Of a DNA stretch of 64,000 nt, positions 2 through 2,426 are shown one piece after another. The notes below the pieces were generated by a model, which did no database searches, was not told the DNA's origin, and saw only the letters and a list, made by a program, of their open reading frames with translations. Source of the stretch: Spirochaetaceae bacterium. Its GTDB lineage: Bacteria > Spirochaetota > Leptospiria > Leptospirales > Leptonemataceae. The DNA lies in NCBI GenBank assembly GCA_002730875.1, contig PCBI01000016.1, positions 1-64,000 on the forward strand, read 5' to 3'. The position numbers and the translations under genes were made by a program. How positions within the stretch are numbered: the stretch's first letter is position 1; every line of letters starts with the position of its first letter.

Positions 2-184
2 TGGGAATCTGAAATGGCAAAAGAGAACCACGCGTTCGTCATGACGTCCTCCCAGTCAAATGAAGATGCTCAGCATTTCTACAGAAAACTCGGTTATGCT
101 GATTCTGGGTCCCTCAATCTTCCGGGGGAACCCGTTGAGCTACTCTTTATCAAAGACCTTAGGAAACTCGGCAACAGCGCCTAA
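2..184 (+). CDS. GNAT-family N-acetyltransferase, C-terminal part (gene starts outside the window)
   Basis: The frame is open from base 2 to a TAA at 182-184 and gives about 60 residues. It contains the C-terminal GNAT signature: a beta strand ending in FVMTSSQSNEDA, then HFYRKLGYADSG (the alpha4/FYxKLGF segment) and a last strand, VELLFIKDL. GNAT enzymes transfer an acetyl group from acetyl-CoA to an amine; the substrate cannot be read from this fragment. The stop codon lies inside the first heptamer of the following attC site (GCC TAA C), which is typical of a cassette gene. A longer open frame starting at 60 in another register runs through the attC site and is not a gene. Confidence 0.8.
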   Translation, partial: WESEMAKENHAFVMTSSQSNEDAQHFYRKLGYADSGSLNLPGEPVELLFIKDLRKLGNSA

Positions 185-356
185 CTGCACTTTAAGCGCT
201 GCGGGCTCGCTTCGCTCGCTCCTCGAGTTTTCGCGCTTTTTTGTCCGGAGGGTGCTCGGCCAGACGGCCGCTGAAGCTGCAATCCCTGCTCTCCCCAAAA
301 TCTGTTCGGCCTGGCCTGGTTGCAGCCGCGCTTTCGCTTAAAGACCTACGTTAGGC
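179..356 (+). repeat. attC recombination site 1 (178 bp)
   Basis: It starts with GCCTAAC (179-185) and ends with GTTAGGC (350-356). Adjacent L-boxes CTTTAAGCG and CGCTTAAAG are complementary. The interior shares a block with sites 2144-2383 and 3506-3780 (GCTCGCTTCGCTCGCTCCTC, then CGGCCGCTGAAGCTG, GGCCTGGCCT and TGCAGCCGCG). This is the best preserved site of the array. Confidence 0.82.
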
Positions 357-392: not shown

Positions 393-1199
393 ATGCTCAT
401 CATCGAGATCAAGAATAGATTACATTCGCTACCAATAGTGAACTACATCTTTGTGGCGGCCCTCGTGGTTTTCGGTCTCGTGACGAGGGTTTCCTTCGGG
501 GAATCAGAACTGGAAGCCTACGCATTTGAGCCGGCCGATCCAAAGCTCTGGCAACTATTGATATCTCCCTTCTTACATGCTGGTCCTATTGCGCTTTTCT
601 ACAATGTTTTTCACTTATTTTTCTATGGTGACAATGTGGAGAATATATTTGGGTCAATTAGATATCCTTTCATATACCTTGTTTGCGGAGTTGCCGGGCT
701 TCTCGTCTATTGGTATATCTATCCTTATTCCGCCGCTTCCATCGTCGGCTCTTCGGCTTCTGTTGCTGGAATAATGGGAGCATACTTGGTGTTCTTCCCG
801 AATGCGCCGGTCCGCATAGTCGGGCAAATGCGTACAACCAAGATTGATACCCCCACTCGATTCTACATCGGATTTATTGCTTGGATCGCTATCTATCTCT
901 TTCTCGATGCAGCCTTTCAGATGTCGAGCAATGGCCGTGAAGGAAGCCTTTACATCGTCATTACTGGCCTGGTATCCGGAATATTAATAGGGGCTATTGC
1001 CCGGAAGCTCGGCCTCGTCCGTCTGCACCTCCAAGCATTCCAGAATCAATCCTCCACTCCAGGAAAACAGATCTGCCCACAATGCTATTCTGAACTCGAC
1101 ATCATTAAATCTGGTGCCTCGTACTGTGAGCATTGCCATTCTTGGATCGTAGCCGGGGCAAAGGGAACTCGAGTTCTCTCGCTCAAGCGGAAGCCTTAG
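393..1199 (+). CDS. Rhomboid-like membrane protein with C-terminal zinc ribbon; probably proteolytically inactive
   Basis: The 268-residue protein has six or so membrane segments and the rhomboid layout. The TM2 region FLHAG...YNVFHLFFYGDNVE (residues 60-83) keeps the Asn and the GDNVE turn. GSSASVAGIMGAYLVFFP (119-136) holds the nucleophile serine at about S121. The TM6 segment that normally carries the catalytic His (AHxGGFxxG) reads IVITGLVSG (188-196), with Val in the His position. The HxxxN histidine before N71 is Ala67. The serine-histidine dyad is therefore incomplete, as in rhomboid pseudoproteases. The C-terminus carries CPQC (228-231) and CEHC (245-248), a zinc-ribbon-like pair. The gene is a cassette; its start lies 36 bp after attC 1 and its stop overlaps the next attC-like site. 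Confidence 0.8.
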   Translation: MLIIEIKNRLHSLPIVNYIFVAALVVFGLVTRVSFGESELEAYAFEPADPKLWQLLISPFLHAGPIALFYNVFHLFFYGDNVENIFGSIRYPFIYLVCGVAGLLVYWYIYPYSAASIVGSSASVAGIMGAYLVFFPNAPVRIVGQMRTTKIDTPTRFYIGFIAWIAIYLFLDAAFQMSSNGREGSLYIVITGLVSGILIGAIARKLGLVRLHLQAFQNQSSTPGKQICPQCYSELDIIKSGASYCEHCHSWIVAGAKGTRVLSLKRKP

Positions 1200-1353
1200 A
1201 TTCAAGGCCGTACCGGGCCAGATCATGGCCGCACCTTCGCCGAACTGCAGCCATGCTTTGGGGGTATTTATGGCGCACGGCTGCAGACGCGCTTGGAAAC
1301 CAAAGCGCGCGCCACAAAAGGCGCTCGACTTCGCTAAAGGACATACATTATGC
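1193..1353 (+). repeat. attC-like site 2, degenerate
   Basis: The first heptamer reads GCCTTAG (1193-1199, containing the rhomboid gene's stop) and the last reads ATTATGC (1347-1353), each a decayed form of GCCTAAC and GTTAGGC. Between them, blocks of the family core are recognisable (CTGCAGCCATGC, CGGCTGCAGACGC, GCGCGCCACAAAAGGCGC, CTTCGCTAAAGGACATAC). It probably no longer recombines efficiently. Confidence 0.55.
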
Positions 1354-1427
1354 TAAATCCGCGAATTGAGGTTTCTGAGAAAATACGAAATTGACGGTCA
1401 TGCAGGCCAGTTCCCTATTGAACCCAG

Positions 1428-2120
1428 ATGGAAAATGACAGATCCCTCCGCTCTTTGGCAAAATACGGCGGTTTTCTTCTCGCCTTTAGTGCTGGATTTG
1501 TGAATATTTCTGCCCTGGCCGGTTTTTTCGGAATCCCTGTTAGCCATCTGACCGGGACTATTTCCAAGTTCTCGTTGAAACTTTCGGAAGCTCAATTCCG
1601 ATCGGCAATATTGCTCGCTGTTGTTGCCGTTAGCTTCCTGATTGGAGCCACCTTCTCCGGATACTTTATCGGCAGCTCAGATCTTAAATTTGGTCGAAAA
1701 TACGGGATAGTTCTGATCGCTCAAAGCGCTATCATACTTTCAGCTATACCTCTTTTCTCCGTGCAATCTATCTGGGCCGAGTATGCCCTTGCCTTTTCCT
1801 CGGGAATGCAGAATGCCCTGGCAACCACCTTCAGTGGCGCCATTATTAGGAGCACACATCTAACGGGCATTATTACCGATATTGGAGTCATCCTGGGAAC
1901 TTCCTTAAGGGCCAGGCGACTACTTTCTACCTGGCATCTCAGTATCCACCTCGCAATCCTCTCTGGATTCATCGCCGGCAGCCTTGTTGGATACATTTCA
2001 TTCAATGCTTTTTCAATCTTCTCGCTTCTTTTGCCGGCGGCTCTCAACTTTCTACTCGGTGCCATCTACTATATCTGGCGGGCTACAGTCGAAAAAAGCC
2101 AACGCTCTCATGACCTCTAG
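1428..2120 (+). CDS. DUF1275 (YoaK-like) family membrane protein
   Basis: The 230-residue, very hydrophobic protein has about six transmembrane segments and the DUF1275 signatures: FSAGFVNISALAGFFGIPVS and THLTGTISK-type sequence near the N-terminus, FSSGMQNALATTFSGAIIRS in the middle, then THLTGIITDIGV. Members of this family are inner-membrane proteins without an established substrate. It is the only gene between attC-like sites 2 and 3, so I read it as cassette cargo. The start ATG is the first in frame; upstream Shine-Dalgarno sequence is weak. Confidence 0.82.
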   Translation: MENDRSLRSLAKYGGFLLAFSAGFVNISALAGFFGIPVSHLTGTISKFSLKLSEAQFRSAILLAVVAVSFLIGATFSGYFIGSSDLKFGRKYGIVLIAQSAIILSAIPLFSVQSIWAEYALAFSSGMQNALATTFSGAIIRSTHLTGIITDIGVILGTSLRARRLLSTWHLSIHLAILSGFIAGSLVGYISFNAFSIFSLLLPAALNFLLGAIYYIWRATVEKSQRSHDL

Positions 2121-2143
2121 CTCAGGCCTAATTGGCGGACTTC

Positions 2144-2383
2144 GCCTAACTGCACTTTAAGCGCTGCGGGCTCGCTTCGCTCGCTCCTCGGGTTTTTATG
2201 CCCGGGGGGTCTCGGCCGACGGCCGCTGAAGCTGAAATCCCTGCTCTTGCCCCTTTCTCTTCGGCCTGGCCTCGTTGCAGCCGCGCGATTTGGGGATGTT
2301 AGAATGCGCGGCTGCAAACGCCGCTCAAGTGAAGTTGCGCGCCCCAGAAGGCCCGCAACTTCACTCAAAGACGTAAGTTAGAA
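2144..2383 (+). repeat. attC recombination site 3 (240 bp)
   Basis: It starts with GCCTAAC (2144-2150) and ends with GTTAGAA (2377-2383); the last base departs from the RRRY consensus. L-box CTTTAAGCG and the imperfect partner ACTCAAAG flank the core. The core repeats the CTCGCTTCGCTCGCTCCTCG block of site 1 and then carries an extra stretch with the inverted pair GAAGTTGCGCG / CGCAACTTC, which lengthens the stem. Confidence 0.78.
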
Positions 2384-2426
2384 AAAAGTCCGCCGGTCCA
2401 TCCTGCTTAGGAGCTAAAGATTTCAA

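Follow-up and report, generated by a model that had tools for sequence, protein, structure and literature searches.

A cassette-borne bacterial rhomboid with a C-terminal zinc ribbon and a predicted pseudoprotease core

A gene near the start of the window (the whole stretch of DNA analysed, 64,000 nucleotides) was found to encode a protein, P0001, which the sequence and a predicted model together identify as a bacterial six-TM rhomboid with the fold and a ribbon retained and both catalytic-site histidines gone. Comparison with its relatives favours a reading of P0001 as a dead and fast-evolving rhomboid from a small family marked by a C-terminal ribbon.

Rhomboid fold and catalytic positions

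The features that define the gene and its active-site region are as follows.

393..1199, + strand: cassette-borne rhomboid gene (268 aa, P0001); open reading frame, PF01694 E=2.1e-21, Foldseek match to GlpG with probability 1.00
591..593, + strand: Ala67 codon GCG at the HxxxN (GlpG His150) position, with Asn71 kept; alignment, His in 45/45 relatives
747..770, + strand: TM4 loop GSSASVAG, residues 119-126, with Ser121 at the nucleophile position; alignment, Ser in 45/45 relatives
957..959, + strand: Val189 codon GTC at the TM6 catalytic His position; alignment, His in 45/45 relatives

The reading frame is complete, with 268 codons running from ATG to TAG. Alignment to the Pfam Rhomboid model, proposed in a preliminary description of this DNA, was readily obtained: PF01694 matched residues 51-203 with 77.1 bits against a curated cut-off of 22.6, which places P0001 within the rhomboid superfamily by sequence. 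Among solved structures, the search with P0001 detected GlpG of H. influenzae (E=4e-5) and, as weak matches, the inactive rhomboids iRhom1/2. The AlphaFold model (m5298989b5e70), predicted from a shallow input alignment of 15 sequences, contains six core TM helices at a mean pLDDT of 72, the TM blocks being mostly at ~73-97 and the poorly modelled tail with the ribbon region below 50. Comparison of this model with GlpG, the second check proposed, agreed as well. By Foldseek against the PDB, GlpG entries came first at a TM-score of ~0.7 (GlpG-normalised), and iRhom1/iRhom2 and Derlin-1 appeared lower in the list, indicating a predicted six-TM rhomboid fold.

For analysis of the catalytic positions, rhomboids were collected from genomes belonging to the bacterial family and phylum of P0001, two named relatives were added, and a non-redundant set of 45 (pairwise identity <80%) was taken. 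The HxxxN His, the TM4 GxS Ser and the TM6 His were each present in all 45, and at these columns P0001 carries Ala67, Ser121 and Val189, exactly the positions that the preliminary description had assigned. Judged against active rhomboid proteases of the MEROPS S54 type, the TM2 motif of P0001 reads A67-L-F-Y-N71 in place of HxxxN, the TM4 nucleophile motif is present as G119-S120-S121 (Ser121 codon TCG at 753-755), and the TM6 catalytic His is replaced by Val189. The serine loop, first thought to be kept, is kept only in part: the Ser and the first Gly are retained, but GASGA of the relatives is changed to GSSAS. The Gly that follows the Ser in 44 of the 45 relatives, equivalent to Gly202, is Ala122 in P0001.

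Two other explanations of the lost histidines were rejected. Misalignment of TM6 was ruled out by a gap-free match between L006, a ribbon-bearing relative (HVAGFLAGMGMGWLARKRGLL), and P0001 (VITGLVSGILIGAIARKLGLV), which covers 15 residues in both proteins up to ARKxGL and is anchored by the conserved G192 and G196 and by ARKxGL itself. The changes from CAY to GCG and from CAY to GTC each need two or three base changes; as at least two are needed in each case, single-base sequencing errors are no explanation.

The histidines of P0001 are H11, H62, H74, H212, H247 and H249, with none between residues 75 and 211, and neither TM4 nor TM6 contains an acidic residue. H62 is the equivalent of the conserved H145 of GlpG. 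H74 lies three residues, one helical turn, past N71 and corresponds to GlpG W157, which we take to face the TM5 gate and not Ser201. By sequence register, no other histidine of P0001 appears placed to stand in for H189. Since His is absent from residues 75-211, the Ser-His dyad between TM4 and TM6 cannot form, and the canonical dyad is excluded on the grounds of sequence. We strongly infer that P0001 is proteolytically dead, without cleavage by the rhomboid Ser-His mechanism. One or more essential catalytic residues being absent from the sequence and the fold being kept in the model, the designation as pseudoprotease was borne out by the alignment, by the gap in histidines between 75 and 211 and by the rhomboid-fold model.

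The ribbon, its relatives and the pattern of change

The C-terminal tail of P0001 carries one further feature.

1074..1136, + strand: Cys4 zinc ribbon C228/C231/C245/C248, predicted cytoplasmic; sequence, co-linear with the ribbons of L006 and L007

The motif reads C228-P-Q-C231...C245-E-H-C248, and Pfam ribbon matches on the tail were weak and below cut-off. The C terminus of rhomboids is in general cytoplasmic, and a tail with 8 K/R and 3 D/E agrees in charge with this location. When a ribbon-rhomboid profile was run over 393 genomes of the phylum, only three proteins matched through the ribbon end: P0001, L006 (G019, same genus, its N terminus cut off by a contig end) and L007 (G005, another genus of the same bacterial family). 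By its co-linear C-terminal Cys4 ribbon, P0001 fits the same ribbon-rhomboid family as L006 and L007. By BLASTP, P0001 was 30% identical to L006 over 212 columns (E=3e-31) and 32% identical to L007 over 136 columns, and L006 and L007 were 39% identical to each other. The tails of P0001 and L006 aligned without gaps (20/62 identical), with a score, leaving out the shared cysteines, above all of 100,000 shuffles. All three proteins share CPxC...CxxC followed by G-x-R-x-L, and the ARKxGL linker is common to P0001 and L006.

Unlike P0001, both L006 and L007 retain HxxxN, GASGAVSG and AHVxG, and by these motifs they should be active proteases. Also unlike P0001, they had no attC-like repeats noticed beside them. 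The ribbon, which the preliminary description had taken as added, is present as described but is not an addition, because the intact relatives L006 and L007 carry it too. As far as these sequences indicate, it is inherited, common to catalytically intact relatives and no novelty of the dead protein. Homologues with the same traits, in other words, were found for the ribbon but, in the genomes and records searched, not for the substitutions. Downstream of L006, a gene (L091:1490-2791, - strand) reads as a retropepsin-type aspartyl protease, with relatives in a single further genome of that family. Since this neighbour is absent from the genome of P0001, no ancestral chromosomal locus is available there for comparison of synteny.

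Conservation in at least 80% of relatives was seen at 27 columns, of which P0001 keeps 16 and loses 11, against 8 lost by the next most divergent relative. The columns kept include H62, N71, G79, E83, G87, Y95 and G99 as well as G119, S121, G126, P136, G192 and G196. Six of the 11 losses (H67, A120, G122, A123, H189 and G191) lie in or beside the active site and five (T17, N24, M72, P116 and A155) were not counted as such, a grouping made post hoc for which no test statistic is claimed. In the rhomboid-domain tree with other dead proteins left out, the branch of P0001 was very long, 2.28 changes per site. The ribbon clade of P0001, L006 and L007 was not recovered in the rhomboid-domain tree, nor was it rejected (p-AU 0.35 and 0.16). 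P0001 instead joined two other dead rhomboids, L024 and L026 (support 89/99); in this grouping long branches are joined, and it may reflect long-branch attraction and is not decisive. No orthologue of P0001 with the same substitutions was found in the family and phylum genomes or by a wider contig scan, which relies on near-exact 8-residue words and could miss distant orthologues elsewhere.

The cassette array and possible routes of spread

The rhomboid gene lies at the edge of an array with attC-like repeats, which takes up the initial 6.7 kb of the window. The elements around the gene are as follows.

179..356, + strand: upstream attC-like site with matching R''(GCCTAAC)/R'(GTTAGGC) ends; repeat families D1, D3-D6
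1194..1354, + strand: downstream attC-like site with decayed ends and approximate borders; D1 copy at 1320-1358
1428..2120, + strand: next cassette gene, DUF1275 membrane protein; PF06912 E=6e-27
2143..2388, + strand: next attC-like site; repeats, fold z = -4.5, copies elsewhere in the same genome and in the genus

The gene is thus located between attC-like sites within an array of such sites, and the other cassette genes encode the DUF1275 protein, an alpha/beta hydrolase, a TrmO-like protein and a SAP/DUF6434 protein. Functional-looking R''/R' ends were observed on one flank only. No other R''/R' pair in the window follows the strict pattern of the upstream site, the bottom strand of which pairs from one end to the other, with an overall folding energy no better than that of shuffles. 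The bottom strand of the downstream site has a strong internal fold (z=-3.35) and has lost R''/R' complementarity, so that excision of the rhomboid gene by itself looks unlikely today. The rhomboid gene and the DUF1275 gene that follows may now form one frozen unit. The earlier assignment to a mobile cassette holds for the attC-flanked position in the array, but with a decayed downstream attC the present-day mobility of the cassette is doubtful.

Three more genomes of the genus have similar repeats, and no rhomboid was found on their array-bearing contigs. In the genome of P0001 itself, repeats of this kind occur where contig C20 ends, ~0.6 kb past a tyrosine recombinase. This PF00589 recombinase of 354 aa (L089:1106-2170, + strand; G000:C20:37605-38669), encoded close to the repeats, matched the integron-integrase model TIGR02249 below cut-off and without positions 173-239, presumably where the IntI-specific patch is expected; the whole may be an integron run by such a patch-less recombinase. 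As the window begins at base 1 of contig C16, the adjoining of C20 and C16 is inferred.

A relation to phage had been considered possible in the preliminary description, and this was not upheld. Viral rhomboids do exist (L094-L115 and matches in BFVD, where the fold matches of P0001 are viral proteins named rhomboids), and those read have canonical residues. Four scans of IMG/VR viral contigs yielded neither a ribbon-bearing nor a dead rhomboid, phage records gave one weak partial match and no ribbon or dead homologue, and the only PHROG match was to the unnamed family phrog_16931, over the rhomboid domain (E=1.6e-9). A phage origin of P0001 was accordingly rejected. Seven IMG/VR proteins (L094, L096, L102, L103, L105, L106 and L109) are related rhomboids with canonical residues and a common K/R-rich N-terminal segment. 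Plasmid records yielded 11 rhomboids at ~30% identity, of which none had a match covering the ribbon and none was found to lack the histidines, and spread by plasmid was likewise set aside. PADLOC gave no match for the rhomboid gene or the four neighbouring cassette genes, and a role in a defence system was discarded.

Possible function and comparison with known systems

We consider it about an even call that P0001 acts as a dead rhomboid holding or presenting membrane clients, with the ribbon docking a partner or sensing metal, after capture into the array. The rhomboid cavity or lateral gate would still bind TM segments of clients, which would be held or presented without being cut, and the cytoplasmic ribbon would dock a partner, perhaps FtsH or another AAA protease, or sense metal. 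By analogy, P0001 would then work like catalytically dead YqgP of B. subtilis, the nearest tested precedent for an adaptor role, or like Derlins or iRhoms; the binding or quality-control factor envisaged in the preliminary description is plausible in this sense. A chromosomal ribbon-rhomboid lineage is the probable source from which the integron-like array captured the gene, and because the downstream attC is decayed the cassette may now be fixed there. In favour of the adaptor, the reading frame is full-length despite ~70% divergence. Against it, Ser121 is kept although binding alone would not require it, and the very long branch is compatible with relaxed constraint. No partner gene linked to P0001 was found.

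The main competing reading is relaxed constraint on the gene: a ribbon-rhomboid captured in the array would have been left unselected and would have lost active-site residues by drift, the frame being still open. We regard this as possible, if on balance unlikely. The very long branch among relatives, the loss of more conserved columns than in any other relative counted, some of them outside the active site (N24, M72, P116 and A155), the decayed downstream attC and the lack of a detected orthologue all fit with decay. Decay is harder to reconcile with 268 codons free of stops and frameshifts when the nearest ribbon relative is ~30% identical, with retention of the four ribbon cysteines, the TM segments and the structural glycines G79, G87, G119, G192 and G196, and with the many losses at the active site. 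The lack of a detected orthologue with the same substitutions also counts against the adaptor reading, as does the rhomboid-domain tree, which neither recovers nor rejects the ribbon clade.

Improbable in our view is a competitive or dominant-negative decoy, in which P0001 would occupy clients or partners of the cell's own active rhomboids and lower their cleavage. The rhomboid fold is retained, the genome encodes besides P0001 the rhomboids L001, L002 and L004, in which the GASG and TM6 His motifs are present, and iRhoms are reported to inhibit rhomboid-dependent signalling (PMC3149277). However, the ribbon is missing from all three, and the assembly (~93% complete) yielded no ribbon-rhomboid with intact catalytic residues, leaving the decoy without a cognate active partner. 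An unusual dyad or other chemistry, in which Ser121 would take a base from H74 or a partner, is highly improbable: Ser121, Gly119 and Asn71 are kept and H74 stands on TM2 one turn beyond N71, but residues 75-211 offer no His and TM4 and TM6 no acidic residue, the W157 position presumably faces the gate, and the serine loop carries the changes G122A and A123S.

Two other genera of the family yielded a further group of dead rhomboids: L024 (G007:C510:2965-4113, - strand, also numbered L117) and L026 (G009:C8:126516-127622, - strand, also L118), which are 36% identical to each other. In both, PF13453 and a second set of CxxC pairs lie N-terminal to a rhomboid domain (E ~1e-11) without the Ser and without the His of either HxxxN or TM6, and proteins of this type were full-length in only 2 of the 393 phylum genomes. 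Like P0001, they are bacterial, belong to the same family and combine a zinc ribbon with a rhomboid domain devoid of the dyad; they differ in the N-terminal place of the ribbon and in the loss of all three catalytic positions. Two further rhomboids, L023 (G006:C95) and L027 (G004:C83), keep the dyad, with HxxxN Asn changed to Cys and GTSG for GASG. That pseudoproteases arose more than once in one bacterial family, always ribbon-bearing, as metal-responsive and cassette-mobile non-cutting adaptors forming a counterpart of Derlins, is a proposal we hold to be rather unlikely.

In the open-licence literature, the role of rhomboid pseudoproteases is well studied in animals and yeast, where they are important, and seldom examined in bacteria. 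Natural rhomboid pseudoproteases are discussed for eukaryotes in three papers (PMC12615303, PMC3149277, PMC6451368), and eukaryotes are also the only organisms for which the rhombosortase paper speaks of them (PMC3237569); the rhomboids of mycobacteria have been considered active (PMC2989971). Open-licence searches for rhomboid plus zinc ribbon gave nothing relevant and those for rhomboid plus integron no rhomboid cassette in titles or abstracts, absences that are weak evidence. P0001, with Ser kept and both His lost, and its intact relatives with the same ribbon form a natural comparison, by which one may ask whether an adaptor function can outlive a protease function.

Among known systems, iRhoms and Derlins resemble P0001 in a rhomboid fold without the Ser-His dyad; they are eukaryotic and have other extra domains, and only the fold is common, no specific sequence kinship having been found. 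GlpG of E. coli and H. influenzae shares with P0001 the six-TM fold and the equivalents of Ser201, Asn154 and His145, whereas His254, His150 and Gly202 are replaced by Val189, Ala67 and Ala122, and GlpG has an N-terminal domain instead of the C-terminal ribbon. YqgP of B. subtilis, like P0001, joins a rhomboid core to a cytosolic metal-binding module. Its S288A mutant retained non-catalytic adaptor activity, and an adaptor role of the catalytically dead protein was shown with FtsH (PMC7231995), from which an adaptor role that predates loss of catalysis has been suggested. In contrast to P0001, YqgP is an active protease by nature, and it carries the metal-binding module as an N-terminal globular domain whereas the ribbon of P0001 is C-terminal.
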